Source: Bacilli bacterium (GTDB lineage Bacteria; Bacillota_I; Bacilli_A; RF39; UBA660). Taken from it: a stretch of 29,355 nt of DNA. The DNA lies in NCBI GenBank assembly GCA_028708945.1, contig JAQVXV010000011.1:1-29355 (forward strand). The letters are read 5' to 3'. Shown piece after piece: positions 1-18,053 of this stretch (positions are counted from its first letter, which is position 1; the number at the start of each line of letters is the position of its first letter). The position numbers and the translations under genes were made by a program. The notes under the pieces were generated by a model. It saw only the letters and a list, made by a program, of their open reading frames with translations. It was not told the DNA's origin and ran no database searches.

Positions 1-2489
1 CAGTTATAGCAAATATAACAACTATTCCATCACAATATTCAATAAGAATAATTATAACTGCAAATGACCGTGAATCGGGAGTTGCTAAATACGAAATAAG
101 TACAGATAGTGCAATTTATATTGAAACTGGAACGGAATATTTATTGAATGGTTTGGATGCAGCTACTGAATACGATATTTATGTTCGAGTAACAAATGGT
201 AAAGAATTGAAAACAGTTGAAAAAGTAACTGTTTCAACTTTAGATTTAGAAATGCCAAATATAATAGTTAATCCAATCGGATGGGCACAATCAAAGGAAA
301 TAACAATCGAATACCCTGAAGGTGATTATGAGTATTCATATAATCAAAATGGTTCTGGATGGATCGAAAGTGAATCAAAAACCGTTGTTTTAAATATGAT
401 TAAAAACGGATTTATAGTTGCAAGGGTAGCCGATCAAAAAATATATAAACAATCAGCAACAATAAATATCGATAAAATAGATATTGATACACCAACATGT
501 GAAATAGTTGTTACTAATGAAAATAATTGGACCTCAAGTAAGCAATTGACAATTGAGGGTTATGATTATTATAGTGGCGTATCTGGAATTCAAAATCCGG
601 GTGATTTAGAATACACAAATAACAGCACGACTACTATGACAGTTACAACTATAGGTACTTATAACGCAAACGTAAAAGACAACGTGGGAAGAATTGGAAC
701 ATGTAGTATCGAAGTAAATAAAGTAGATTCAACTGCTCCTTCTAGTGCTTCAGTGGCAGTATCAGAAATCACAACTAAATCAATTAGAGTCGAAGCTTCG
801 GGTGTTGATTTAGAATCAGGAATCATTAAATATGAGTTTAGTATTGATGGTGGCTCATATATAAATAATGGTAATAATAGAAGTTATTTATTTGCAAATT
901 TAATAGCGGGAAATCATGCTATTAAGGTAAGAGTAACAAATGCAGCTGGTATAACTAGAGAATCTACAGTTTTAAATACATCTACTGACATTCCAGATAA
1001 TCCAACATTTTCTGTCAACACCTCAAATTGGGTACAATCAAAAGTAGTAACAATAACTTATCCACCACTTGAAGAAGATTTTGTATACCAATATAACCAA
1101 AATAATACGGGATGGATCACGATTGCAGGCGGGGATGTTACAAAACAATTAACATTTTCAAGTAACGGTTTTGTAGTTGCAAGAATATTTGATGGATTAA
1201 ATTACTTTACATCATCAACTTTCAACGTTACAAAAGTTGATTCGGTATCGCCTATAATAAGTGAATTATATTCTGGTGGAATGGTATATAAAGACCCCAC
1301 CTTTGCATCAGGAAATAATAGTATATATGTTTATAATAATACAGGAAATGGTTTAGTAGGACATACAAGACAAAGTATGAGTACACCAGCAGGTTCATAT
1401 GCTCTTGAGATTAAGACAACAGGAACAGCTTCACCAGGGCATGGTGGATTCTATTTTGCAACCGGGACATCTGCTAATCAAGTATTAGTAACAAAGATAA
1501 TTGCTAAGATACCAGTTGGGTATACTATAAATTTTGCGTCAAATGCCTATGGAACTGGGGGAACTTCAACTTGGTTATCTTCACAAGCTGGAACTGGAAA
1601 TTGGGAAACTTATGTTCACGTAGCAAAATGCGGATCTTCAGGAACTTTCAGTAGTACTAATTTCTTCTATTTATCAGGTGGAAGTACACCAACAACTACT
1701 ACGCCATTAACTTGGCATGTGGCATATGCAACAGTAATTACTAATTATACTTGGGAGACAACAAACAATATTTCGTTTAAAGCAACGGATAGTGGATCGG
1801 GTATAACTCAATATGGCGTTAATCAGTCATCATCAACAGCACCTTCAACATGGACATCAATGACTGCAAGTACTTTGTTTGGAAACATGATAACAGGAAT
1901 TACATCAAACGGAACATATTATGTTTGGGTAAAAGATCAAGCGGGAAATACTCAAAAAGCAGCAATTGCCGTTTCAAAAGTAGATACTCAAAATCCAACA
2001 TGTTCAATTACACAATCAGAATCAACATCTTGGACAACAAGTAAATATTTAACAATAACAAGTAGTGATGATGGGGGAGTAACGCACTATAAGAAACCAG
2101 GCGACTCAAGTTATACTGCTGGAACAAGTGGTGGATTAACGGTATATAGTAATGGAACATATACAGCGACAGTATTAGATATAGCAGGAAAAACAGGCAC
2201 TTGTTCTGTAATTGTTTCTAAAATAGATACAGCATCACCATCTTGTAGTATGAGCGTTTCAAACGCAACTACCTGGGCAACAAGTAAGTGGGTATCAATT
2301 TCTGGTTCGGATTCACAAAGTGGTGTATATGGATTTATATTACCTGGTAATTCAACTTATACAACTGGAACTTCATCAGGATTTACAGCCTATAACACAA
2401 AAACATATTCAGTTACTGTAAAAGATAATTCTGGTAGAACCAATACTTGTAGTGTAACTACACAAAAAATTGGAACTCTAAATTATGGA
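1..2489 (+). repeat. Long tandem direct repeat, unit 1 (matches 3715-6203)
   Basis: Every aligned position is offset by exactly 3714 bp, with no indel from base 1 to about 2489. Identity is patchy. Roughly 377-904 and 1877-2477 match base for base by eye, while 111-162, 288-376 and 966-1340 hold clustered substitutions. Similarity drops abruptly after the shared NYGDK codons. Confidence 0.9.
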
Positions 2490-3062
2490 GATAAACAAGC
2501 ATATAATAACAGTGGTGGATATTTGAGTTTAGGCACAGATAGTGTATTTAATTTAAATCAAAACACTTTCCATTTTTATGCTAGAGTTGCCAAGGATTCT
2601 GCAGGGGATAGATTAATAGCAAGTTTTAAAAATCCGACTAATACTATTGGTTGGGAAATAATGTGGTTGGCAGATGGAAGAATAAGATGGATGACAAAAT
2701 ATAACAGTATTTATTATTCTTATTCGTCAAATTATTTACCGGCAACGGGGACTTTCTACGATTTATATATAGATTTTAATTCAACCGGAACTGGAAACGG
2801 AACAATGCGTTGGAACGGAACTTCTAGTACTGCAAACAGATATGGAAGACATCAATATTCAAACGCTGTATTAACGTTAGGAACCTGCGGTATATATTGG
2901 CGAGGTCACATAAGGGCTCAGGGAAGAGATTATAATGGAAATCAACCAGATAGATATGGATATATAAATAATTTATCGGTAGGTTCAAACAATCAAACGG
3001 CAGGAAGTTTATCAACAGTTAATACAACGGTTACCCAAGATACTTGGTGGACAGTAAAATAA
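1..3062 (+). CDS. Giant type IV pilin-like modular surface protein, copy A (5' end outside window)
   Basis: The reading frame is open from base 3, so about 1,019 residues are visible; the Met at 144 is internal. Alignment with the next gene (base 1 here = base 3715 there) implies that about 135 N-terminal residues, including the prepilin leader, lie upstream of the window. Visible modules, in order: FN3-like (ends near 240); Ig-like modules with a W-x-x-SK motif, some with a Cys pair about 68 residues apart; a second FN3-like unit; a ~165-residue module with a HGGFYF motif (about 1242-1742); two Cys-paired Ig-like repeats; and a C-terminal ConA/LamG-like domain (GWEI, ADG and WNG motifs) ending in DTWWTVK. 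Likely role: cell-surface adhesion or glycan binding, by inference. It is almost identical to copy B up to about base 2489 and then diverges. No sortase tail is seen. Confidence 0.8.
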   Translation, partial: VIANITTIPSQYSIRIIITANDRESGVAKYEISTDSAIYIETGTEYLLNGLDAATEYDIYVRVTNGKELKTVEKVTVSTLDLEMPNIIVNPIGWAQSKEITIEYPEGDYEYSYNQNGSGWIESESKTVVLNMIKNGFIVARVADQKIYKQSATINIDKIDIDTPTCEIVVTNENNWTSSKQLTIEGYDYYSGVSGIQNPGDLEYTNNSTTTMTVTTIGTYNANVKDNVGRIGTCSIEVNKVDSTAPSSASVAVSEITTKSIRVEASGVDLESGIIKYEFSIDGGSYINNGNNRSYLFANLIAGNHAIKVRVTNAAGITRESTVLNTSTDIPDNPTFSVNTSNWVQSKVVTITYPPLEEDFVYQYNQNNTGWITIAGGDVTKQLTFSSNGFVVARIFDGLNYFTSSTFNVTKVDSVSPIISELYSGGMVYKDPTFASGNNSIYVYNNTGNGLVGHTRQSMSTPAGSYALEIKTTGTASPGHGGFYFATGTSANQVLVTKIIAKIPVGYTINFASNAYGTGGTSTWLSSQAGTGNWETYVHVAKCGSSGTFSSTNFFYLSGGSTPTTTTPLTWHVAYATVITNYTWETTNNISFKATDSGSGITQYGVNQSSSTAPSTWTSMTASTLFGNMITGITSNGTYYVWVKDQAGNTQKAAIAVSKVDTQNPTCSITQSESTSWTTSKYLTITSSDDGGVTHYKKPGDSSYTAGTSGGLTVYSNGTYTATVLDIAGKTGTCSVIVSKIDTASPSCSMSVSNATTWATSKWVSISGSDSQSGVYGFILPGNSTYTTGTSSGFTAYNTKTYSVTVKDNSGRTNTCSVTTQKIGTLNYGDKQAYNNSGGYLSLGTDSVFNLNQNTFHFYARVAKDSAGDRLIASFKNPTNTIGWEIMWLADGRIRWMTKYNSIYYSYSSNYLPATGTFYDLYIDFNSTGTGNGTMRWNGTSSTANRYGRHQYSNAVLTLGTCGIYWRGHIRAQGRDYNGNQPDRYGYINNLSVGSNNQTAGSLSTVNTTVTQDTWWTVK

Positions 3063-3086
3063 AAGTGTAATTATTTACACTTTTTT
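3061..3086 (+). terminator. Intrinsic terminator after copy A
   Basis: AAAAGTGTAA (3061-3070) pairs with TTACACTTTT (3075-3084) around a TTAT loop, and the stem runs into a T tract. The 5' arm begins inside the TAA stop codon (3060-3062). Confidence 0.8.
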
Positions 3087-3259
3087 AATTGATTAAAAAA
3101 TATAGTTTAAATTTTAATCAAAATAATGGTAGTTATTGTTATATCGGGAATAATACTATTAGCGAAACGAAGATACTAAAACAAGAAGATGTAAATTAAT
3201 GTTACGTTTTTAATTTTTAACACTTTTTGACATTATAAAAAATTATATACCCCGATTGT

Positions 3260-3288
3260 TTGATTTAGAAAAAAGAATATGTTATATT
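3260..3288 (+). promoter_or_regulatory. Probable sigma-A promoter of copy B
   Basis: The -35-like TTGATT (3260-3265) and -10 TATATT (3283-3288) are separated by 17 bp. A TG one base upstream of the -10 makes it an extended -10. The rest of the 249-bp gap (3063-3311) contains the preceding terminator and otherwise nothing I recognise. Confidence 0.55.
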
Positions 3289-3311
3289 AAAAATAGGATA
3301 GTGGTGATTAA

Positions 3312-6300
3312 GTGAGTAAAAAGAGAAAATTTAATAACGCATTTACCTTAATTGAGTTAATAGCAGTTATTGTCATATTAGGAATAATAGCTATTATAAC
3401 AACAACTTCAATTTTAGGAATTTTAAAAAACAATAGGAAAAATACATTTTCCCTCAGTTTAGAAAACTTGATCAAATCATTTGAATTATTAAATAGTAAT
3501 TCGTCATTAACGGGAGAATATTATGATAATATTGCTGTAACTAGTCCGATTTTAGAAACTTCAAATGAAAAGTTTGATGCTGGTGAATTAGGATATAACT
3601 CGAATCTTATTCCAGAAGTTCGCTATGCAACTAATGGGGAGTTTTGTGGTGCCGGGACAAGTGGAAATTTTCAAATTTCTAGTGGTGATTGCGAAGGATT
3701 GGATATTACTCCAGCAGTTATAGCAAATATAACAACTATTCCATCACAATATTCAATAAGAATAATTATAACTGCAAATGACCGTGAATCGGGAGTCGCT
3801 AAATATGAAATAAGTACAGATGGTGAAAATTATTTTGAAACAGGAACAGAGTATTTACTAAACGGATTAGATGCGTCTACTGAATACGATATTTATGTTC
3901 GAGTAACAAATGGTAAAGAATTGAAAACAGTTGAAAAAGTAACTGTTTCAACTTTAGATTTAGAAATGCCGAATATAATAGTTAATCCAATCGGATGGGC
4001 AAAAAGTAAACAAATAACAATAGAATATCCTGAAGGTGATTATAAATATTCATATAATTTAAATGGTTCTGGATGGGAAGAAAGTGAGTCAAAAACCGTT
4101 GTTTTAAATATGATTAAAAACGGATTTATAGTTGCAAGGGTAGCCGATCAAAAAATATATAAACAATCAGCAACAATAAATATCGATAAAATAGATATTG
4201 ATACACCAACATGTGAAATAGTTGTTACTAATGAAAATAATTGGACCTCAAGTAAGCAATTGACAATTGAGGGTTATGATTATTATAGTGGCGTATCTGG
4301 AATTCAAAATCCGGGTGATTTAGAATACACAAATAACAGCACGACTACTATGACAGTTACAACTATAGGTACTTATAACGCAAACGTAAAAGACAACGTG
4401 GGAAGAATTGGAACATGTAGTATCGAAGTAAATAAAGTAGATTCAACTGCTCCTTCTAGTGCTTCAGTGGCAGTATCAGAAATCACAACTAAATCAATTA
4501 GAGTCGAAGCTTCGGGTGTTGATTTAGAATCAGGAATCATTAAATATGAGTTTAGTATTGATGGTGGCTCATATATAAATAATGGTAATAATAGAAGTTA
4601 TTTATTTGCAAATTTAATGGCGGGAAATCATGCTATTAAGGTAAGAGTAACAAATGCAGCTGGTATAACTAGAGAATCCTCAATTTTAAATACATCTACT
4701 GACATTCCAGATAATCCAACATTTTCTGTAAGTACTTCTGCTTGGGCAAAGAGTAAAGTGCTAACAATAACTTATCCACCACTTGAAGAAGATTTCATAT
4801 ATCAATATAACCTTAATGGTGGTGGATGGACTACAATTACAGGCGAGGATGTTACAAAACAATTAACATTTTCAAGTAATGGTTATGTAATCGCAAGAAT
4901 ATTTGATGGTTTAAATTATTTTACATCTTCTACTTATAATGTTACAAAAGTTGATTCGGTATCACCTATAATAAGTGAAGTATATTCTGGTGGAATGTTA
5001 TATAAAGACCCCACCTTTGCATCAGGAAATAATAGTATTCGTGTTTATAATAATACAGGAAACGGATTAGTAACCCACACAAGACTAAGTATGAGTACAC
5101 CAGTAGGTTCATATGCACTTAGAATAACAACAACAGGAACAGCTTCACCAGGGCATGGTGGATTCTATTTTGCAACCAAGACATCTGCAAATCAGGTGTT
5201 AGTAACAAAGATAATTGCTAAGATACCAGTTGGTTATACTATAAATTTTGCATCAAACGCTTATGGAACGGGTGGGACTTCAACATGGCTATCTTCACGA
5301 GCAGGAACTGGAAATTGGGAAACTTATGTTCACGTAGCAAAATGCGGATCTTCAGGAACTTTCAGTAGTACTAATTTCTTCTATTTATCCGGTGGAAGTA
5401 CACCAACAACTACTACGCCATTAACTTGGCATGTGGCATATGCAACAGCAATTACTAATTATACTTGGGAGACAACAAACAATATTTCGTTTAAAGCAAC
5501 GGATAGTGGATCGGGTATAAATAAATATGGCGTTAATCAGTCATCATCAACAGCACCTTCAACATGGACATCAATGACTGCAAGTACTTCGTTTGGAAAC
5601 ATGATAACAGGAATTACATCAAACGGAACATATTATGTTTGGGTAAAAGATCAAGCGGGAAATACTCAAAAAGCAGCAATTGCCGTTTCAAAAGTAGATA
5701 CTCAAAATCCAACATGTTCAATTACACAATCAGAATCAACATCTTGGACAACAAGTAAATATTTAACAATAACAAGTAGTGATGATGGGGGAGTAACGCA
5801 CTATAAGAAACCAGGCGACTCAAGTTATACTGCTGGAACAAGTGGTGGATTAACGGTATATAGTAATGGAACATATACAGCGACAGTATTAGATATAGCA
5901 GGAAAAACAGGCACTTGTTCTGTAATTGTTTCTAAAATAGATACAGCATCACCATCTTGTAGTATGAGCGTTTCAAACGCAACTACCTGGGCAACAAGTA
6001 AGTGGGTATCAATTTCTGGTTCGGATTCACAAAGTGGTGTATATGGATTTATATTACCTGGTAATTCAACTTATACAACTGGAACTTCATCAGGATTTAC
6101 AGCCTATAACACAAAAACATATTCAGTTACTGTAAAAGATAATTCTGGTAGAACCAATACTTGTAGTGTAACTACACAAAAAATTGGAACTAAAAATTAT
6201 GGAGACAAGCATTTAAGAATGAATAGATCGGGTGCGTACGCAACTATTACCCCTGGAGGTTTGTTCCAATATAATAACTCCTCAGGAGGAACATTTAGAT

Positions 6301-6812
6301 TTGAAGCAGTTGTTTTAAAAACTGTTACTTCTTCAGCAAAAATGATAGCATCTGTTTATCCTAGCAGTAAGTGTGGCTGGGAAATAAAATGGGAGGCAGA
6401 TGGCAAAATAAGTTTTAGATCAAGATACAACAGCACCTGGGGTACGAAAAGATATTCATCTAATCTTGTAAATGTTGCTAATAAATATATTCCTTTAAAA
6501 ATAACCTATGTAGGAAATAATAACGGTACAATAAGTTGGAATGGCGTATCAACATCAGTGGGGAACTCTTCGCGTGCAGAATATAATGCTGATGCCCCAT
6601 TGACGTTAGGAACATCGGGTATATATTTTAAGAATTACATAAGAGTAGCAGGTAGGAAATATTCTGCAATTGTTACCGATAGTACCTTTTATATAAATAA
6701 TTTTACTGTAGGAACAAATTTCAGTCCAAGTATTAAAGGTAGTAATACGAGTACTACATTAAAAGGTTATTCAGTAGATGTTTTCCAAGATACTTGGTGG
6801 ACAGCTAAATAA
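3312..6812 (+). CDS. Giant type IV pilin-like modular surface protein, copy B
   Basis: 1,166 residues, GTG start, with GTGGTGA (3301-3307) as Shine-Dalgarno. The N-terminus is a short basic leader followed by A10|FTLIE, then a hydrophobic helix to about residue 38. This is the type IV prepilin cleavage/methylation signature, with Ala rather than Gly at -1 and Glu at +5. A pilin-like segment (40-130, Cys112 and Cys127) leads into an FN3-like domain (131-215), Ig-like modules (216-297 and 298-377, Cys301/Cys369), FN3-like (378-465), Ig-like (466-548), a ~165-residue HGGFYF module (549-715), an Ig-like module (716-798), two Cys-paired repeats (C802/C869, C883/C951) and a ConA/LamG-like tip (957-1166) ending in DTWWTAK. 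Typical pilins have 120-200 residues, so the ectodomain is exceptional. Adhesion is inferred; no assembly genes are nearby. Confidence 0.85.
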   Translation: MSKKRKFNNAFTLIELIAVIVILGIIAIITTTSILGILKNNRKNTFSLSLENLIKSFELLNSNSSLTGEYYDNIAVTSPILETSNEKFDAGELGYNSNLIPEVRYATNGEFCGAGTSGNFQISSGDCEGLDITPAVIANITTIPSQYSIRIIITANDRESGVAKYEISTDGENYFETGTEYLLNGLDASTEYDIYVRVTNGKELKTVEKVTVSTLDLEMPNIIVNPIGWAKSKQITIEYPEGDYKYSYNLNGSGWEESESKTVVLNMIKNGFIVARVADQKIYKQSATINIDKIDIDTPTCEIVVTNENNWTSSKQLTIEGYDYYSGVSGIQNPGDLEYTNNSTTTMTVTTIGTYNANVKDNVGRIGTCSIEVNKVDSTAPSSASVAVSEITTKSIRVEASGVDLESGIIKYEFSIDGGSYINNGNNRSYLFANLMAGNHAIKVRVTNAAGITRESSILNTSTDIPDNPTFSVSTSAWAKSKVLTITYPPLEEDFIYQYNLNGGGWTTITGEDVTKQLTFSSNGYVIARIFDGLNYFTSSTYNVTKVDSVSPIISEVYSGGMLYKDPTFASGNNSIRVYNNTGNGLVTHTRLSMSTPVGSYALRITTTGTASPGHGGFYFATKTSANQVLVTKIIAKIPVGYTINFASNAYGTGGTSTWLSSRAGTGNWETYVHVAKCGSSGTFSSTNFFYLSGGSTPTTTTPLTWHVAYATAITNYTWETTNNISFKATDSGSGINKYGVNQSSSTAPSTWTSMTASTSFGNMITGITSNGTYYVWVKDQAGNTQKAAIAVSKVDTQNPTCSITQSESTSWTTSKYLTITSSDDGGVTHYKKPGDSSYTAGTSGGLTVYSNGTYTATVLDIAGKTGTCSVIVSKIDTASPSCSMSVSNATTWATSKWVSISGSDSQSGVYGFILPGNSTYTTGTSSGFTAYNTKTYSVTVKDNSGRTNTCSVTTQKIGTKNYGDKHLRMNRSGAYATITPGGLFQYNNSSGGTFRFEAVVLKTVTSSAKMIASVYPSSKCGWEIKWEADGKISFRSRYNSTWGTKRYSSNLVNVANKYIPLKITYVGNNNGTISWNGVSTSVGNSSRAEYNADAPLTLGTSGIYFKNYIRVAGRKYSAIVTDSTFYINNFTVGTNFSPSIKGSNTSTTLKGYSVDVFQDTWWTAK
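3715..6203 (+). repeat. Long tandem direct repeat, unit 2 (matches 1-2489)
   Basis: Second unit of the tandem duplication, inside copy B. The two units are each about 2.5 kb and lie close enough for unequal crossover or gene conversion to act between them. Confidence 0.9.
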
Positions 6813-6815
6813 AAC

Positions 6816-6844
6816 AAAGGTGTAAAATTAATTTTTACACCTTT
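6816..6844 (+). terminator. Terminator-like hairpin after copy B
   Basis: AAAGGTGTAAAA (6816-6827) pairs perfectly with TTTTACACCTTT (6833-6844) around TTAAT. The 12-bp stem is followed by AACATTTT rather than a clean T run, so termination may be less efficient than after copy A. The 3' arm overlaps the first -35 candidate of the next gene. Confidence 0.65.
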
Positions 6845-6882
6845 AACATTTTGTTGATAAAAGAGATATAATGTGCTAAAAT
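6843..6882 (+). promoter_or_regulatory. Two overlapping promoter candidates for copy C
   Basis: Candidate 1: TTAACA (6843-6848), 18-bp spacer, TATAAT (6867-6872). Candidate 2: TTGATA (6854-6859), 17-bp spacer, TAAAAT (6877-6882) with an upstream TG (extended -10). Both read toward the ATG at 6906. Which one is used cannot be decided from sequence. Confidence 0.5.
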
Positions 6883-6905
6883 TGATTTAGAATAGTGGTG
6901 AATTT

Positions 6906-9900
6906 ATGAAAAAAAAGGGATTAACTTTAATTGAATTGTTAGCAGTTATCGTTGTGCTTGGAATAATAGCACTTATTGCTGTGCCTCAAGTAGTTAAAAT
7001 TATTAAGAATTATCGAGAGGAATCATTTGTAGCAAGTTTAGAAAACCTTGTAAAAACCTTTGAAGTTCTAAATAGTGAGGGTGGTATGGATGGAGTGGAA
7101 TATTCGGAAATTGATGTTACCGATCCGCAATTACCTACCTCTAACAAAGAATTTATATCTGGTGAGGTTGGATATAATCCAAATCAGCAAATTGAAGTTC
7201 GCTATGTAACGAATGGAAAATTTTGTGCAGTTGGAACGAGCGGTAATTTTAAAATAACCGAAGGAAACTGTGGTAGTTTAGACTCGACAGGTCCTATTAT
7301 AAATAATGTATCTGCAGTACCTTCAAAATACACAATTAGGTTATTAGTGGATGCTGAAGATCCTGAAACAAGTATAGTAAAATATGAATATAGTATTCAA
7401 GGAAGTAGTTTTCACGAAATGGACGTTGATTACTTAATAGAAGATTTAAAATCATCTACTGATTATTCTATTATCGTAAGAGTAACAAATGCGGCAGGAA
7501 TGAGTACAAATAAAACTTTTAGAGTTAGAACCTTAAGTCTTGATACACCAACAGTTGCAATCACTCCAGAGGGGTGGACAACTTCAAAAACAGTAACAAT
7601 AACATATCCAGAAGGATATACAAATTATTATAATAAAAACGGTGAAGGATGGATTATATCACAAACTGAAACAGCTGTTTTGGAATTTACAGAAAGAGGT
7701 TTTGTTGTTGCTATGATAACAGATGGTATTACAACAGAACAAACTGTAACTTATAATATTGAAAAAATAGACAATGATTATCCGACGTGTGTAATAGCTG
7801 TTGAAAATGCTGACACATGGAGGCCTAAAAAAGAATTAAAAATCATCGCAACTGACGGAACGAGCGGAATATATGGTGTTTTAGCTCCGAACGAAAGTGA
7901 GTATACAATTGGTGCAACAATTAAAAGAGATGCAACTTATATTGGTTCGTATACAGCTACCGTAAAAGATAATTCAGATAAAACTGGAAGTTGTAGTGCG
8001 GCGGTTACAAAAGTAGATTCAACAGGACCAACAAATGTATCTGCTAATATTGTAAGTACGACAACTAGTACAATTGTTGTTGAGGGATTGGGAGTAGATC
8101 CTGAAACAGGAATAACAAAATATGAATTTAGATTAGATGGTGGACAATATATTGATAACGGTAATACAAGTATTTATACTTTCACCGATGTTAGTTCTGG
8201 TTCACATACTGTACAGTTAAGAGTAACGAATGGGGTTGGGTTGACAACTGAATCATCAGTAATAAACGCAACACCCAATACAGCAACATTACCAACATAT
8301 TCAGTATCGCCAAGTGGATGGTCAACTTCAAAAACAGTTGTAGTAACTTATCCTACAAGACAAGCAAATTATATTTATGAATATAGTACGAATGGTACAA
8401 CGTGGTATACGTTAACGGGTGGAGTTACTAAAACAATAGTTTTCACTTCAAGTGGTTATGTAATAGCAAGAATCTATGATGGAACAAACTATTTTACTGC
8501 TTCAACTTTTAATGTTACCCAAATTGATTCAACAGCACCTGTTCTTACAACAGTTACAACAACTCCAACAACAAGTTCGATTGCAGTAAATGTAACAGCG
8601 TCAGATGGTGAAACAGGAATAACAAAATATGCTTATAATATAATGGGAAATGATAAAAATGAAACAATTGAAAGTTCATTATCAAATTATACATTTAGTA
8701 GTTTGAAAACAGGAACTTATGAAATACTTGTTACTGTAACAAATGGAGTTGGGTTAACTAAAACATCAACTGCTAAATCAGTAGCGTTATTACCGATAAC
8801 AGCAGCAACATGTTCTGCAATATCTCCAAGTTGGTCAGCAAGCAAATCAGTTACATTAACATATCCAACAAGAACATCGGGTATAATATATACTTATAGT
8901 GTGAATAGTGGCGCATGGCAAACATTAGGGTCTGGAACGACAGTTTCACAAACCTTCACAGCACCAGGAACACTAGTAGCAAGAGTTTCAGACGGTGTCA
9001 ATTCAAAAAACACTACTTGTAATGTAATTAATGTAGATGGAACTGACCCAGTTATTGGTGACGTACATAGTGGTACAAGAATATATAACGATCCTAATTT
9101 TGCATCAAGTACTAATAGTACAAATGTTTATAACAATGCTGCTAACGGAAACGTATCAGTTTCTAGAGTAGCAATGAGTAGTTCATATGGCAGCTATGCT
9201 TTAAGGGTAACTACAGTAGGATCGGCTGCTCCAGATCATGGTGGTTTCTTCTTTGGAACACCAACGAGTGCAAACCAAGTATATGTTTCTAGAATCGTTG
9301 CAAAAATACCAGCAAATTATACAATTAATTTCGGATCAAATTTAACTGGAACTGGTTCAAGTGGTTATTGGTTAACATCACAAGCAGGAACTGGCGATTG
9401 GGAAGAATATGTATATGTATTAAAATCAGGAACAGGTGGCACATTCAGTACAACCAATTTCTATTACCTTAGCGGAGGAACAGCACCATCAGCGAGTTCA
9501 CCATTAACATGGCATGTAGCATATGCAACTGTATATTCGACAGCAGATTATTCTTCTGCTAATTATATTACGTTTAAAGCAAGTGATGTCGAATCAGGTA
9601 TTGTAGGATACGGAATTAATCAAAGTTCTACAACTGCTCCAACATTTACAAATATTACAAATACTAGAGATTTTGTTAAAAATGTTGGTGGATTTACTAC
9701 AAATGGTACATATTATGTATGGGTAAAAAATGCAGCAGGAAGAATTTCTAATAAAGCGGTATCTGTAAATAGAATAGACGTAACACGACCAGTCTGTTCG
9801 TGGGCAACTGCAAATTCACAAGCAATCGACGTTGGTAGTAGTACAACAATCAATTTAACATGTAATGATTCAGGCGGAATAACACAAGGAGATTATACAG

Positions 9901-10586
9901 CAACTTCACTTAAGAACCATCTATCTGCCACTAATGGTTTAACCATTGTAAATGTTACAAGAACAGGATCGGCAACTTCATTTATCTATACAGTTACGGT
10001 AAAGGGAGAAAATAATCCGGGTTTAAAAACAATAACTTTAGGAGCAAACACTTTAGCAGATGGCGCTGGTAATTATAATGTAGCAGTAACAAGCGGTACA
10101 ATAACTGTAAATCCAGCAGCCGTAACACATGCAACAGGTTTCTTAGTAACCACTAATAATCCAGCAATGTACGGGAATGTATATTACCAATCATCTAGGG
10201 AAGGTCAAAACCAAATGTTTAGAGTAAGAACAGGAGTCTATACAAGTAGTGCGTATGGTTGGAGATGTGATAGATGGGCCGCAAGAATAACAATAAATGG
10301 TTCTGTTGTTGTTAAAAATGGCCAACTAAAACCATCACAGCAATCTATATGTTCTTCAGAACCTCTGTTAGGAAAAGACGTTGTTTATTATCATCCTAGT
10401 TCAACGGGATGGACAAGTTGGTACAGTTATAATGATACGAGAACATCGGGAACGACATTAGCAAAATTTGATTATTATGACACCGGATATGATACAAATG
10501 AAAGTCACGAACTTGGTTCATATTCTAATCATGAATATTATTCAACATATAATATGAATATGTCTATAATTCCATACTCATGGTAG
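6906..10586 (+). CDS. Giant type IV pilin-like modular surface protein, paralogue C
   Basis: 1,226 residues, ATG start, GTGGTGA Shine-Dalgarno at 6895-6901. The leader MKKKG|LTLIE has the expected Gly at -1 and Glu at +5 but Leu instead of Phe at +1, followed by a hydrophobic helix to about residue 34. The pilin-like segment has Cys107 and Cys122 at places matching copy B. Module order then follows copy B: FN3-like, W-x-x-SK Ig-like units, and a DHGGFFF module (about 712-880) that is the best conserved part shared with A and B. There are additional Ig-like units near 546-710. The C-terminus differs: a Big/Ig-like domain (about 963-1072) and an aromatic-rich terminal domain (1075-1226, ending PYSW) that I do not recognise replace the ConA-like tip. 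It is probably a surface adhesin related to A and B, with an older divergence. Confidence 0.85.
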   Translation: MKKKGLTLIELLAVIVVLGIIALIAVPQVVKIIKNYREESFVASLENLVKTFEVLNSEGGMDGVEYSEIDVTDPQLPTSNKEFISGEVGYNPNQQIEVRYVTNGKFCAVGTSGNFKITEGNCGSLDSTGPIINNVSAVPSKYTIRLLVDAEDPETSIVKYEYSIQGSSFHEMDVDYLIEDLKSSTDYSIIVRVTNAAGMSTNKTFRVRTLSLDTPTVAITPEGWTTSKTVTITYPEGYTNYYNKNGEGWIISQTETAVLEFTERGFVVAMITDGITTEQTVTYNIEKIDNDYPTCVIAVENADTWRPKKELKIIATDGTSGIYGVLAPNESEYTIGATIKRDATYIGSYTATVKDNSDKTGSCSAAVTKVDSTGPTNVSANIVSTTTSTIVVEGLGVDPETGITKYEFRLDGGQYIDNGNTSIYTFTDVSSGSHTVQLRVTNGVGLTTESSVINATPNTATLPTYSVSPSGWSTSKTVVVTYPTRQANYIYEYSTNGTTWYTLTGGVTKTIVFTSSGYVIARIYDGTNYFTASTFNVTQIDSTAPVLTTVTTTPTTSSIAVNVTASDGETGITKYAYNIMGNDKNETIESSLSNYTFSSLKTGTYEILVTVTNGVGLTKTSTAKSVALLPITAATCSAISPSWSASKSVTLTYPTRTSGIIYTYSVNSGAWQTLGSGTTVSQTFTAPGTLVARVSDGVNSKNTTCNVINVDGTDPVIGDVHSGTRIYNDPNFASSTNSTNVYNNAANGNVSVSRVAMSSSYGSYALRVTTVGSAAPDHGGFFFGTPTSANQVYVSRIVAKIPANYTINFGSNLTGTGSSGYWLTSQAGTGDWEEYVYVLKSGTGGTFSTTNFYYLSGGTAPSASSPLTWHVAYATVYSTADYSSANYITFKASDVESGIVGYGINQSSTTAPTFTNITNTRDFVKNVGGFTTNGTYYVWVKNAAGRISNKAVSVNRIDVTRPVCSWATANSQAIDVGSSTTINLTCNDSGGITQGDYTATSLKNHLSATNGLTIVNVTRTGSATSFIYTVTVKGENNPGLKTITLGANTLADGAGNYNVAVTSGTITVNPAAVTHATGFLVTTNNPAMYGNVYYQSSREGQNQMFRVRTGVYTSSAYGWRCDRWAARITINGSVVVKNGQLKPSQQSICSSEPLLGKDVVYYHPSSTGWTSWYSYNDTRTSGTTLAKFDYYDTGYDTNESHELGSYSNHEYYSTYNMNMSIIPYSW

Positions 10587-10593
10587 ATAATTT

Positions 10594-10647
10594 AAAAACA
10601 CTAATATATGTAACTTTATTTAAAAGACATGTTGTTAGTGTTTTTTT
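10594..10647 (+). terminator. Intrinsic terminator after copy C
   Basis: AAAAACACTAA (10594-10604) pairs with TTAGTGTTTTT (10635-10645), with a run of seven T at 10641-10647. The 30-nt interior can pair only partly, so the loop is large for a terminator. It separates the surface-protein cluster from parA. Confidence 0.65.
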
Positions 10648-10702
10648 GATATTCAACTCTTATTTTAAAACATATATTTTTATAGATTTATTATAAAAAA
10701 TA

Positions 10703-10711
10703 TGGTAAAAT
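10703..10711 (+). promoter_or_regulatory. Possible extended -10 promoter of parAB
   Basis: TGGTAAAAT at 10703-10711 reads as an extended -10 (TGn then TAAAAT). The -35 candidate 17 bp upstream, TAGATT at 10683-10688, is weak. A GATGGTGAG Shine-Dalgarno (10733-10741) precedes the parA ATG. Confidence 0.4.
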
Positions 10712-10746
10712 GTTTATAGTATAAGAAAAGAAGATGGTGAGTACTA

Positions 10747-11532
10747 ATGGGCAAAATAATAGCGCTTGTAAATCAAAAAGGTGGAGTTGGAAAAACAACT
10801 ACCAGTATAAATTTGGCGGCTTCTTTAGGAGTAATGGGGAAAAAGGTACTTGTAATAGATTTAGATCCTCAAGGTAATAGTACAACGGGTTTAGGGATTT
10901 CAAAAAAGGAATTTAAAAACAGTGCATATGAATTATTAACAAATAAAGCAACATTAAAAGATGTAATAATTAAAACAAAACATAAAAATTTATATATAAT
11001 ACCAGCTACCGTTAATTTAGCGGGTATAGATATTGAATTTATTCAATTGAGCAGTTTAAATCCCGAATTTGATAGAGCTAATCAATTAAAAAGACAAATA
11101 CAAGTTACAAAAGAAATGTTTGATTATGTTTTGATTGATTGCCCCCCTAGTTTAGGAATAATAACTACTAATGCATTAACAGCAGCAAATTCGGTAATCA
11201 TACCAATTCAATGCGAATTTTTTGCACTAGAAGGTGTTATGCAATTGATAAACACAATAATGTTTGCACAAAAAAACTTAAATAGGGAACTAACAATAGA
11301 GGGAGTTTTGCTTACAATGTTAGATAGTAGAACTAATCTTGGTTTAGAAGTAGTTGAAGAAATAAGAGGATATTTTAAAGAATGTGTATATGACACAATA
11401 ATACCTAGGCTTGTAAAATTATCAGAAGCTCCAGGTTATGGTAAACCTATACTTGCATATGATCCAAAGAGCAAAGGAACTGATGCATATCTTAATTTAG
11501 CCAAGGAGGTTATAACAAGAAATGGAAAATAA
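10747..11532 (+). CDS. parA: ParA/Soj chromosome-partitioning ATPase
   Basis: 261 residues, the family's usual length. Deviant Walker A KGGVGKTT at residues 11-18, DLDPQGN at 38-44, Walker B-like IDCPPSLG at 130-137 and an ALEGV segment near 160 identify a chromosomal ParA. It binds DNA non-specifically as an ATP dimer, and ParB stimulates its hydrolysis; this drives origin segregation and influences DnaA in relatives. The gene overlaps parB by 11 bases, and parB's Shine-Dalgarno lies within parA, so the two are probably translationally coupled. The rsmG/mnmG/noc genes often found upstream are absent here; giant pilin genes occupy that place. Confidence 0.96.
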   Translation: MGKIIALVNQKGGVGKTTTSINLAASLGVMGKKVLVIDLDPQGNSTTGLGISKKEFKNSAYELLTNKATLKDVIIKTKHKNLYIIPATVNLAGIDIEFIQLSSLNPEFDRANQLKRQIQVTKEMFDYVLIDCPPSLGIITTNALTAANSVIIPIQCEFFALEGVMQLINTIMFAQKNLNRELTIEGVLLTMLDSRTNLGLEVVEEIRGYFKECVYDTIIPRLVKLSEAPGYGKPILAYDPKSKGTDAYLNLAKEVITRNGK

Positions 11533-13362: not shown

Positions 13363-14883
13363 ATGATAAAAAGAAAAAAAAAGGGCTTTGATATTTCGTT
13401 AGGCCCTGTAATAACGATAATTATATTAACGCTTATAGTTATAGTTTTAAGTTCGATATTTTCAATATTGGAAATAGAAGCGGAAAAGACTCAAATAATC
13501 GATAATGGATTAGAAACCACCTTAGTTACTGTCAATAATGTTCTTACAATTGATGGAATAAAAGCAATCATTAGTAATTCAATGGTAAATTTAAATTTAT
13601 TTGAACCTTTTTTCTTATTAATTATGTCGTTAATAGCAATAGGAATAGGGGAAGCAAGTGGTTTATTTCAAATAGTTTTTAAACCATTAAAAAAGATGAA
13701 AAAAGAATGGTTAACATTTTTAACTTTATTAATTGGATTAACTTCTTCAATTGTAGGTGAATATAGTTATATAATTTTAATTCCATTGATTGCGTTAATA
13801 TATCAATATGCAAACAAAAAACCTTTTTTAGGAATATTGACAATGTTCATTGGAATAACTGTTGGTTATGGAACTGGCATATTAGCGAGTTATGATGATT
13901 ATATATTAGGAACAATGACTCAGGCAGCGGCTAATGTTGACTTAGATCAAAACTTTGTCTATAATTTATATTCTAATATTTTTATAATGATTTTCAGCGT
14001 TATTGCTTTATTAATTTCTGGAATGTTTATCATTAAAAAATTCTTAGAACCTAAAATATGTAAAAACGAAGTCAAAGAAACAGAATACAAAGAATCAAAA
14101 AAAGGACTTTTCTTTACCTTATTAGCGTTTGTATCTTTAATACTGATTGTAATTTATATGATTATCCCTGGTTTTTATAAATCTGGGCTATTGTTAACGG
14201 ATGGCGATCGTTATATAGTTAAATTATTTAAAGATGGTTCGCCATTTAAAGATGGATTTATGTTTGTTTACTTATTTATATTTATGGTTTGTGGATTTAT
14301 ATATGGAAAAATTTCTAAAAATGTTGAAAATACTAATCAATACAGTATTGGATTATCAAAAAATTTTGAAAACTTAGGATATTTATTTGTATTATTATTT
14401 TTTACTGCTCAATTGATAGGAATTCTTGAATGGACAAATTTAGGTGAAGTAATTACTATAAATCTATTAAACTTATTGAGTGGTTTTGATTTTTCAGCCA
14501 TAATATTGATTATAGTAACATTTATTTTAGTAATTATAATGAGTATATTAATGCCATTTAATATAGTAAAATGGTCTTTGCTATCACCGGTTTTAGTACC
14601 TTTATTTATGCGTGCTAATGTAACGCCTAGCTTTGCACAATTTGTATTTAGTGCAGCTGATTCTATCGGTAAAGCAATTACCCCTTTCTTTATATATTTT
14701 ATTATTACTTTAGCATTCCTTGAAAAATATAATACTGATGAAGATAATAAAATAACAATATTTGGGACACTTAAGAAAATAATGCCAACCATTTTAATGT
14801 TTGCCGTTGTCTGGTTTGCAATAATAATTGGTTGGTACATAACAGGATTACCTACAGGAATAGGGGTACATCCAACAATGTAG
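13363..14883 (+). CDS. AbgT-family transporter
   Basis: 506 residues, strongly hydrophobic with a short basic N-terminus, about the length of AbgT transporters (500-520). Recognisable segments are GIGEASG (94-100), VGEYSYIILIPLIALIYQYA (131-150), the loop near 170-190 (GTGIL...DDYILGTMTQAAA), and a C-terminal half with NIVKWSLLSPVLVPLFM and ADSIGKAITPFF. The family includes E. coli AbgT (uptake of p-aminobenzoyl-glutamate) and MtrF-like exporters of folate-related compounds and sulfonamides. The direction and substrate here are not predictable. AGGAGG precedes the ATG. A terminator-like hairpin overlaps its stop codon. Confidence 0.82.
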   Translation: MIKRKKKGFDISLGPVITIIILTLIVIVLSSIFSILEIEAEKTQIIDNGLETTLVTVNNVLTIDGIKAIISNSMVNLNLFEPFFLLIMSLIAIGIGEASGLFQIVFKPLKKMKKEWLTFLTLLIGLTSSIVGEYSYIILIPLIALIYQYANKKPFLGILTMFIGITVGYGTGILASYDDYILGTMTQAAANVDLDQNFVYNLYSNIFIMIFSVIALLISGMFIIKKFLEPKICKNEVKETEYKESKKGLFFTLLAFVSLILIVIYMIIPGFYKSGLLLTDGDRYIVKLFKDGSPFKDGFMFVYLFIFMVCGFIYGKISKNVENTNQYSIGLSKNFENLGYLFVLLFFTAQLIGILEWTNLGEVITINLLNLLSGFDFSAIILIIVTFILVIIMSILMPFNIVKWSLLSPVLVPLFMRANVTPSFAQFVFSAADSIGKAITPFFIYFIITLAFLEKYNTDEDNKITIFGTLKKIMPTILMFAVVWFAIIIGWYITGLPTGIGVHPTM

Positions 14884-14900
14884 GGGTTATCCCCTTTTTT
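14882..14900 (+). terminator. Terminator-like GGGG/CCCC hairpin between abgT-type gene and ychF
   Basis: AGGGG (14882-14886), loop TTAT, CCCCT (14891-14895), then T to 14900. It overlaps the transporter's TAG and ends just before the ychF Shine-Dalgarno (AGGAGG, 14903-14908). An alternative is possible: another GGGG at 14863-14866 could take the same CCCC, enclosing a TACAT/ATGTA hairpin (14867-14871/14878-14882). Confidence 0.55.
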
Positions 14901-14912
14901 ATAGGAGGTTTT

Positions 14913-16013
14913 ATGGGATTAAAAGCAGGAATAGTAGGCTTACCAAACGTAGGTAAATCAACTTTATTTAATGCAATTACAAAAAAGAATATTTTAGCTG
15001 CAAATTATCCTTTTGCAACAATTGATCCAAATATTGGAATGGTAGTTGTTCCGGATAAAAGATTGGAGTATTTAGAACAATTATATATACCAGAGAAGAT
15101 GATACCAACAGCGTTTGAATTTATTGATATTGCAGGATTAGTTAAAGGTGCGTCTACAGGTGAGGGTTTAGGAAACAAATTCTTATCACACATTAGAGAA
15201 GTAGATGCCATCTGTGAAGTTGTTAGGTGTTTTAAAGATGATAATATAATTCACGTTGAAAATAGCGTCGATCCTATCAGAGATATTGAAATCATAAATA
15301 TTGAACTTGTTTTAGCAGATTTAGAAGTAGTTGAAACAAGAATGGGTCGCATTGGTAAAAAAGCCACTATGGCTAAAGACAAAGAAACAATTAAAGAAAA
15401 TGAGCTTTTATTAAAAATTAAGGCATGTTTAGAACAAAATAAAACACTTAGAAGTTTAGACTTTAATGAAGAAGAGAAAAGTATAATAAAACCATTTAAT
15501 TTTTTAACTTTAAAACCAATAATTTATATGGCAAATATTTCGGAAAATGATCTTTTAGACGGAAATAATGAATATGTTGATATGGTAATTGAATATGCTA
15601 AAAGAGAAAAAAATAAAGTTATTACAGTATGTGCTAAAATGGAATCTGAAATAGTAGAATTAAATGAAGAAGATAAAATTAAATTTTTAAATGAAGTTGG
15701 TATTGAGGAAAGTGGTTTAGACAAATTGATAAGCGCAACTTATGAATTGCTTGGATTAGAAACTTATTTCACGGTGGGAAAAGATGAAGTTCGAGCTTGG
15801 ACATATACAAAGGGCATGAAAGCACCAGAATGTGCTGGAATAATTCATTCGGATTTTGAAAGAGGCTTTATTCGAGCAGAGATCATGAGTTTTGAAGATT
15901 TAAAACATTCGGGCGATGAAAAAAAAGTAAGAGAAGCTGGCAAAATGAGACTTGAAGGAAAAGAATATATAATGAAAGACGGGGACATTTGTCATTTTAG
16001 ATTTAATGTTTAG
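14913..16013 (+). CDS. ychF: YchF/EngD universally conserved P-loop ATPase
   Basis: 366 residues from the ATG at 14913, exactly the family length; a longer in-frame start at 14832 would read back into the transporter gene and is rejected. MGLKAGIVGLPNVGKST is the Obg-family P-loop (G9 to T17). YPFATIDPN (switch I) and the DIAGLVKGAS/GEGLGNKFL stretch (G3/switch II) follow. NISEND stands where GTPases have NKxD, which fits YchF's known preference for ATP. The C-terminal TGS domain begins near YFTVGKDEVRAWT. YchF binds ribosomes and is implicated in stress responses. Its position before rpsF-ssb-rpsR matches B. subtilis yyaF. Confidence 0.96.
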   Translation: MGLKAGIVGLPNVGKSTLFNAITKKNILAANYPFATIDPNIGMVVVPDKRLEYLEQLYIPEKMIPTAFEFIDIAGLVKGASTGEGLGNKFLSHIREVDAICEVVRCFKDDNIIHVENSVDPIRDIEIINIELVLADLEVVETRMGRIGKKATMAKDKETIKENELLLKIKACLEQNKTLRSLDFNEEEKSIIKPFNFLTLKPIIYMANISENDLLDGNNEYVDMVIEYAKREKNKVITVCAKMESEIVELNEEDKIKFLNEVGIEESGLDKLISATYELLGLETYFTVGKDEVRAWTYTKGMKAPECAGIIHSDFERGFIRAEIMSFEDLKHSGDEKKVREAGKMRLEGKEYIMKDGDICHFRFNV

Positions 16014-16019
16014 TGAAGT

Positions 16020-16745
16020 ATGAGAGAATTTTTTGTAGATGAAGTAGTTGGAATTAAATTTGAATTGTTTGGGCTTATCCACTTAATATGTTTAGGTGTT
16101 TTATTTATTGGGTTATTTTTAATATATAACAATCAAGATAAGATTTCTAAAATAAGTGAAAAAACAGCCAAAAAACTAAAAATAGGAATTATTTCGGTTA
16201 TAATGATTAATAGAATTATATATATTGGGGCACAAATGATTTATGGAATATATACTTGGAAAGAAGATTTACCACTTCATTTTTGTTTCATAACTGGTTA
16301 TCTATTTATCTATTATTTAATAAAAAAGAAAGAAAAAGTTTTTAAAACTGTGTTTTTCTTTGCGTTTATGGGACCTTTTACAGCTACTATATGGCCAGAC
16401 TTACAAAGTTCTTTGGACTATTTTGTATTTTATGAATTTTTTATAAGTCATCATTTAGTTGTGTTATCTGTGTTTTTTATCTATTATTTAGATAAAATCA
16501 AAATAGAAAAAAAAGACATAATAAGGACCTTTATATTTGCAAATTTAATTTTTATTTTCGCAATAATATTTAATAGATTATTTCAAACAAACTATATTAT
16601 GTCGGAAGAATTGCCGGAACATATTTTAGAATTATACCCTTTTTTAAACAATTTTAATAATCCAATCATAACAATTATAGTAGCAGGAATGATTGCTATG
16701 TCTATAGCATATATACCGGTATATTTGAAAAACAAAAACAATTGA
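16020..16745 (+). CDS. YwaF/TIGR02206-family integral membrane protein
   Basis: 241 residues with about six or seven hydrophobic segments. LPLHFCFITGY (84-94), FMGPFTATIWPDL (116-128), FISHHLVVLS (141-150) and the N-terminal GLIHLICLG match the pattern I associate with the TIGR02206/YwaF family, whose function is unknown. The conserved His residues in LPLH and SHH may lie in or near the membrane. It starts six bases after the ychF stop with almost no Shine-Dalgarno, so translation is probably coupled to ychF. The rpsF promoter begins two bases after its stop codon. Confidence 0.75.
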   Translation: MREFFVDEVVGIKFELFGLIHLICLGVLFIGLFLIYNNQDKISKISEKTAKKLKIGIISVIMINRIIYIGAQMIYGIYTWKEDLPLHFCFITGYLFIYYLIKKKEKVFKTVFFFAFMGPFTATIWPDLQSSLDYFVFYEFFISHHLVVLSVFFIYYLDKIKIEKKDIIRTFIFANLIFIFAIIFNRLFQTNYIMSEELPEHILELYPFLNNFNNPIITIIVAGMIAMSIAYIPVYLKNKNN

Positions 16746-17927: not shown

Positions 17928-18053
17928 GTGTGGCGTGCGTTGATGTGTGAGGTTGCTGATACACCAGGTTAAGTTGTGTGAGATTTAAACTGTAATCAGG
18001 TTTTTACACGGAGCAAGTCTATACTTTAAGATATAGGCGAAGGGAGGTACAAT
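17928..18053 (+). ncRNA. Structured 5' leader of the S10 operon
   Basis: About 126 nt. Visible pairings: GTGT (17945-17948) with ACAC (17961-17964); GTGT (17976-17979) with ACAC (18006-18009), enclosing AAACTG (17987-17992) with CAGGTTT (17997-18003, one bulged G) around TAAT; and GTCTATA (18017-18023) with TATAGGC (18032-18038, one wobble), ending two bases before the Shine-Dalgarno AGGGAGG (18041-18047). GAGGTTGCTGA and GGAGCAAGTC look, from memory, like blocks conserved in rpsJ leaders of other Firmicutes. A role in feedback control by a ribosomal protein is inferred. Extra GTGT copies (for example 17928-17931) would permit alternative pairing. Confidence 0.65.

Follow-up and report, generated by a model that had tools for sequence, protein, structure and literature searches.

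The 29,355-nt stretch analysed here, referred to as the window (assembly GCA_028708945.1, contig JAQVXV010000011.1, positions 1 to 29,355 of the forward strand), is chromosomal DNA of a low-G+C member of the Bacillota, and its first 10,586 nt hold three long plus-strand genes, termed A, B, and C. A preliminary description had presented their products as three giant type IV pilin-like proteins, and the coordinates and reading frames given there are correct. The genes and the pilin modules of B and C are as follows:

3..3062, plus strand: gene A, running in from beyond the 5' edge of the window; the 1,019 visible residues comprise an FN3-like stalk, a jelly roll, and a tip
3312..6812, plus strand: gene B, giant prepilin-like protein of 1,166 aa, GTG start; PF07963 and TIGR02532 above cut-off
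6906..10586, plus strand: gene C, giant prepilin-like protein of 1,226 aa; PF07963 and TIGR02532 above cut-off
3312..3701, plus strand: pilin module of B; leader, A10↓FTLIE, helix 13-67, strands 73-124
6906..7280, plus strand: pilin module of C; leader, G5↓LTLIE, then the helix and head, aligned to B

B and C are genuine prepilin-like proteins. The motifs A↓FTLIE in B and G↓LTLIE in C, noticed earlier by inspection, go beyond chance, since both proteins exceed the curated cut-offs of Pfam N_methyl (PF07963; 23.4 bits for B and 23.7 for C, cut-off 21.2) and NCBIfam TIGR02532 (23.3 and 25.8 bits, cut-off 16.3). Direct reading of the sequence places the predicted cleavage sites at A10↓F11 in B and G5↓L6 in C, each with a Glu at +5. 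The predicted structure of B (m8d09bd224649) has at its N-terminus a helix of 55 residues, followed by a small pilin sheet and an FN3-like stalk, with block pLDDT of 57-82 over residues 11-130, so that the pilin relation of B survives the structural check that had been proposed for it. The structure of C was predicted without its N-terminal part, and the predicted pilin fold is thus that of B. Among solved structures, the best sequence match of C was the Geobacter pilin 9egp (E 6.1e-5) and that of B was GspG 5wda (E 0.0043, residues 11-133). Gene A is open at the 5' end of the window, where neither its start nor a prepilin motif is visible; its product is probably of the same type as B, given that the two stalks are identical at 783 of 826 residues. 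The earlier statement that no sortase signal is visible was borne out: no Pfam match to wall-anchor families was obtained for A, B, or C at E up to 0.01, and no LPXTG-like sorting signal was seen by eye at their ends.

Beyond the pilin module, the proteins comprise a stalk, a jelly roll, and a C-terminal tip:

3717..4958, plus strand: stalk of B, tandem FN3-like domains, residues 136-549
7293..9041, plus strand: stalk of C, FN3-like repeats, with ~175 residues more than B near residues 544-718
1254..1742, plus strand: jelly roll of A, placed by alignment to B
4968..5456, plus strand: jelly roll of B, residues 553-715
9075..9560, plus strand: jelly roll of C, residues 724-885, CBM4-like fold
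2481..3059, plus strand: tip of A, identical to that of B at 81 of 190 aligned residues
6195..6809, plus strand: tip of B, without a confident model
10131..10583, plus strand: tip of C, mostly low-confidence model

The ectodomains had been described as FN3/Ig-like modules with distinct C-terminal tips, which leaves out the jelly roll that A, B, and C have in common and that shows the beta-sandwich fold of CBM4 in the predicted structure. The stalk and jelly roll together form an extra C-terminal module that is not pilus-specific. The predicted likeness of the roll to CBM4 domains (3p6b CelK, 2y6j Rhodothermus xylanase) is at the fold level; unlike the CBM4 of enzymes, it is here borne on a pilin, and its binding is putative. 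In Pfam searches up to E 5, the tips of A and C gave no match and the tip of B a single weak one to a zona-pellucida Ig-like domain (E 0.028; 15.4 bits, cut-off 28), while a homologue search with B residues 965-1166, the tip, returned nothing at E 0.001. The tips may still have a known fold, because the VIA-align rows barely reach them.

The alignment of A with B is gap-free at an offset of 3714 and includes two tracts of complete identity:

375..904, plus strand: 530-nt A/B-identical tract, B copy at 4089-4618
1877..2477, plus strand: 601-nt A/B-identical tract, B copy at 5591-6191, reaching up to the start of the tip

The 120 mismatches over positions 1-2477 all fall in the 1346 nt outside these tracts, which total 1131 nt with 0 mismatches. 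The blocks between the tracts are ~9% diverged, and similarity falls at the start of the tip. The longest identical run, 601 nt, compares with at most 269 nt in 10,000 random placements; at third codon positions alone it is 267 of 825 positions, compared with at most 187 in 10,000 placements. Judged from the sequence, this mosaic looks like gene conversion. We also compared pilin genes in selected regions of five other genomes, with pilins as the only gene family compared. In G012, 29 of 325 gene pairs share exact tracts of at least 60 nt, the longest (321 nt) between different contigs; the same holds for 3 of 171 pairs in G240, where one pair within the same cluster shares 550 nt. The longest exact tracts between pilin paralogues of G171, G001, and G379 are 100, 114, and 194 nt, respectively.

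Relatives of the window were sought by several routes. A search with C, scored over the 7,989 candidates with the most words in common, returned 116 proteins at E 0.001, A included, many of them with N_methyl. Contigs of genomes were scanned as well; of the 245 loci obtained, the best 80 came mostly from uncultured Bacilli assemblies, many of animal-gut origin by title, with some from Paenibacillus and other Bacillales. The MscS protein encoded beside parB is closest to those of G276 (58%), G212 (56%), and G012 (56%) among 385 genomes of one order. We call this order RF39-like by inference, because it includes a UBA660 genome (G014, L056) and UBA660 is placed in RF39 in a passage of PMC13155120. 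RF39-type bacteria live in the gut, have reduced genomes, and are described in passages of PMC10868615 as an as-yet-uncultured order. The 24 genomes of this order that ranked highest for the MscS marker were taken as the set of relatives.

An assembly machinery of the type 4 filament kind is widespread in this set. A PilB-type T2SSE match is present in 24/24 relatives, that of G276 lying close to the end of a contig and starting at position 119 of the profile, and a strong PilB match was also found in 17 of 18 genomes chosen from the contig-scan loci. PilC-type T2SSF matches at E 1.3e-30 or better occur in 22/24 and any T2SSF in 23/24; Peptidase_A24 occurs in 22/24, each time on the PilC contig within 1 kb. 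The exceptions are G307, without PilC-type T2SSF and peptidase, and G005, with a Tad-type T2SSF only. At loci L229, L230, and L233, pilB faces two small pilin-like genes. The ATPase matches fall into PilB/GspE-like, TadA-like, and VirB11-like classes, with one representative of each named; no match was classed as PilT among the ATPase matches that were named, which are only some of them, and retraction is therefore not evident. Many relatives also have a Tad-type pilus locus beside the PilB/PilC system (L169:5462-10572 and similar), and L231:800-1957 is a VirB11-like ATPase of the third class. Two further ideas were not borne out. Joint absence of the prepilin peptidase and pilins across the order gave no clean pattern, A24_N_bact matching in 338/385 genomes. 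Loss of sortase as a cause of pilin-based display was not supported, PF04203 matching in 21/24 relatives (none in G240, G390, and G001); G012 combines 46 pilin motifs with 5 sortase matches, and G005 28 with 6. These sortase matches agree with passages of PMC10868615, which predict that most RF39 species have a peptidoglycan wall and that two other orders lack srtA/B.

The relatives carry many pilin genes. At E 0.01, each of the 24 relatives has between 8 and 62 N_methyl matches; as gene counts these figures are approximate, because some matches lie in contig-end fragments. At E 0.001, 374 of the 385 genomes of the order match, 36 of them with at least 21 matches. In a sample of the class, 71 of 120 genomes match N_methyl: the 14 that are also in the order sample have 4-32 matches, and the other 57 have at most 7. 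The order differed from the other genomes of this sample with a Mann-Whitney P of 8e-10, kinship ignored and all 49 non-matching genomes, 29 of them unlisted, counted as other; some of the genomes counted as other may belong to the order. The 62 open frames with a prepilin motif in G240 amount to 75.9 kb, or ~6.3% of a ~1.2 Mb genome, and the 46 of G012 to 45 kb (~2.8%). In an alignment of 21 pilins of G012 (300-520 aa), the first 150 columns show a mean pairwise identity of 66-86% and the later ones 28-52%; this genome thus combines a conserved pilin module with divergent C-terminal parts. Pilins of 748-1,675 aa lie amid unrelated genes in several related genomes, and at least 46 of 385 genomes contain relatives of the A2 profile at E 1e-20, a lower bound since two candidates were scored per genome.

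Several further observations concern these genes. G240, G012, G171, and others (L191-L210, L213-L219, L223-L224) carry as many as 62 prepilin-motif matches in genomes of 1-1.7 Mb; many pilin genes of the relatives stand singly among unrelated genes, and some form tandem clusters. C-terminal DUF6273 matches below the cut-off of 23.5 bits were seen in the pilins L200:391-1626 (20.6 bits) and L181:844-4122 (18.1 bits), and one of two G012 pilins tested has a sub-threshold match to this domain, which may have a C-type-lectin-like fold. A 520-aa protein encoded near pilB (L184:13888-15450) combines a prepilin motif of 20.7 bits (Pfam cut-off 21.2) with an Ig-like domain and an ALK/LTK glycine-rich domain. 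The profile match G275:C24:79256-79738 lies within an open frame whose 4,310 residues far exceed the length of A-C.

In the window, A-C are followed on their 3' side by parA, parB, mscS, abgT, ychF, a TMEM164-like gene, rpsF, and ssb, and further downstream by ribosomal genes of the S10 operon, secY, and adk. The absence of pilus ATPase, platform, and prepilin peptidase genes nearby, as reported before, was borne out among the 17 window genes beyond A, B, and C that were scanned with profiles, some small genes being left out. The gene order parA-parB-mscS-abgT is common to 9/9 relatives inspected by eye from frame lengths and starts; a giant pilin gene immediately upstream of parA was found in 0/9 of them (L167, L171, L174, L178, L179, L180, L182, L183, L185), and L179 has a 130-aa pilin at that place. 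The gene at 16020-16745, between ychF and rpsF, encodes a TMEM164/TP0381-like integral membrane protein. As listed (14832-16013, TTG start), ychF overlaps abgT; its start is probably the ATG at 14913, because the TIGR00092 match begins at residue 28. Two regulatory features were located:

6816..6844, plus strand: terminator-like hairpin between B and C
17932-18040: S10-Clostridia ribosomal leader RNA (RF03136) upstream of rpsJ, 39.6 bits, gathering score 35.1

Terminator-like sites numbered 8, some of them within genes, compared with 3.6 expected from shuffles. A promoter consensus scan of positions 1-10800 says little, since it gave 69 promoter-like sites compared with 58 expected (sd 7.1).

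The nearest known systems are the modular pilins, a published class of >1,200 proteins in 264 architectures whose most extreme multi-domain case has 860 residues, as given in passages of PMC8179133. Like Streptococcus sanguinis PilB, with its vWA module, B and C have in a monoderm a prepilin motif, a small pilin module, and a grafted functional module; the same passages predict PilB at the filament tip. By sequence B and C, and by predicted structure B, would belong to this class. B and C differ in reaching ~1,200 aa with several FN3-like domains. As in S. sanguinis PilC (Ig-like and ConA-like lectin domains; passages of PMC9934059), a pilin module is joined to an Ig-type and a sugar-binding fold; unlike PilC, which was not among the solved-structure sequence matches of B and C, A-C have a long FN3-like stalk containing a CBM4-like jelly roll. 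The top Foldseek match of B is the Aureispira Grappling hook protein A (9flp, others; E 2.5e-13), likewise a long multi-domain surface fibre, with a likeness limited to strung beta-sandwiches (TM-score 0.15-0.18). A-C are less exceptional than had been supposed, given the published class and the 748-1,675-aa pilins of several related genomes. They are set apart from known modular pilins by size, by an FN3-like stalk with a CBM4-like roll, by recombining neighbours, and by small-genome relatives with many pilins.

We consider it rather probable that A-C are modular tip pilins of the S. sanguinis PilB/PilC type, scaled up to ~120-130 kDa and recombining, that serve an uncultured gut-type member of the Bacilli as glycan surface adhesins. 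The N-terminal helix would insert the protein in the membrane, a PilD-type peptidase would cut before FTLIE or LTLIE, and PilB and PilC would load the protein by its small pilin module onto the end of a type 4 filament, probably beside two small pilins such as those encoded next to pilB in relatives. A-C look too bulky to form the repeating subunit of the filament. The FN3-like stalk would hold the CBM4-like jelly roll and the variable tip away from the cell, where they may bind glycans or a ligand of host, microbial, or plant origin. Neighbouring copies may swap stalk DNA by recombination while their tips diverge. Several results weigh against this assignment. The model of B has a mean pLDDT of 64, with a poor helix start and values below 50 beyond residue 842; the jelly rolls of B and C alone gave no Pfam match at E up to 5, their CBM4 likeness being one of fold only; and the searches with the tips of A, B, and C gave them no family identity. 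PilB, PilC, and the peptidase were found in the genomes of relatives, so that machinery in the same cell is presumed; and across the order 8 of 11 genomes without N_methyl still match A24_N_bact, so that the peptidase marker does not track pilins.

The main rival is an anchored stalk, in which the helix would be a signal anchor only and the protein would stay single in the membrane, whether or not PilD cuts it, and would never polymerise, its head being a relic. The size of A-C, which would make packing awkward, speaks for it, as does the lack of an assembly gene among the window genes scanned; so do G307 and G005, which match no peptidase and still hold 25 and 28 prepilin motifs, in assemblies that may be incomplete. 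We regard it as unlikely, because the Glu+5 motif and the whole pilin head, needless for a plain anchor, are kept, and almost every one of the 24 relatives has PilB and PilC. A DNA-uptake (Com-type) pilus or secretion pseudopilus, in which the giants would capture DNA or guide export rather than adhere, is less likely again, and very unlikely overall. C does match the ComGC (NF040999) and GspG models, the PilB and PilC proteins of the relatives score alike to GspE/GspF and PilB/PilC models, below the cut-offs shown, and PilT is missing among the matches named; the scores of C (24.9 and 23.5 bits) are, however, far under the curated cut-offs (75 and 88.85). Com-type systems typically use a few small pilins, fewer than the 8-62 motifs per genome found here. 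Finally, the A/B-identical tracts might be a product of metagenomic assembly and say nothing of recombination: A is truncated at the window edge within sequence common to B, the window may be a whole contig (the longest contig listed for A has the same 29,355 bases), and repeats frequently break or mislead assemblers. We hold this to be distinctly unlikely, since simple collapse would not yield the diverged blocks between the tracts and exact tracts of 100-550 nt occur among pilin paralogues of the five other genomes (between different contigs in G012 and G171), although these too are assemblies.

Type IV pilus genes have been described in another reduced-genome gut lineage, UBA9783 (a passage of PMC12306168), and the words 'pili' and 'pilin' are absent from the main text of two gut-lineage surveys (PMC7301438, PMC10868615). 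Judged by title and abstract start, no paper on RF39 pilins or on pilins >1,000 aa was among the open-licence PMC matches listed, a search that excludes preprints and most subscription papers. With the tip pilins proposed here, the concept of modular pilins would come to cover not just a single added domain but stalks of some ten domains, in copies that recombine. More surprising than A-C themselves is the wider expansion of pilins. It is possible, if doubtful, that in RF39-like gut Bacilli with genomes of ~1-1.7 Mb the prepilin end is a main means of surface display, one PilB/PilC/PilD machine serving up to ~60 dispersed, recombining modular pilins with gene-converted stalks and diversifying glycan- or host-binding tips. 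If the ~6% of the G240 genome devoted to frames with prepilin motifs holds, attachment is probably central to the life of this organism, and the pilin tips offer concrete leads to what RF39-type bacteria attach to.
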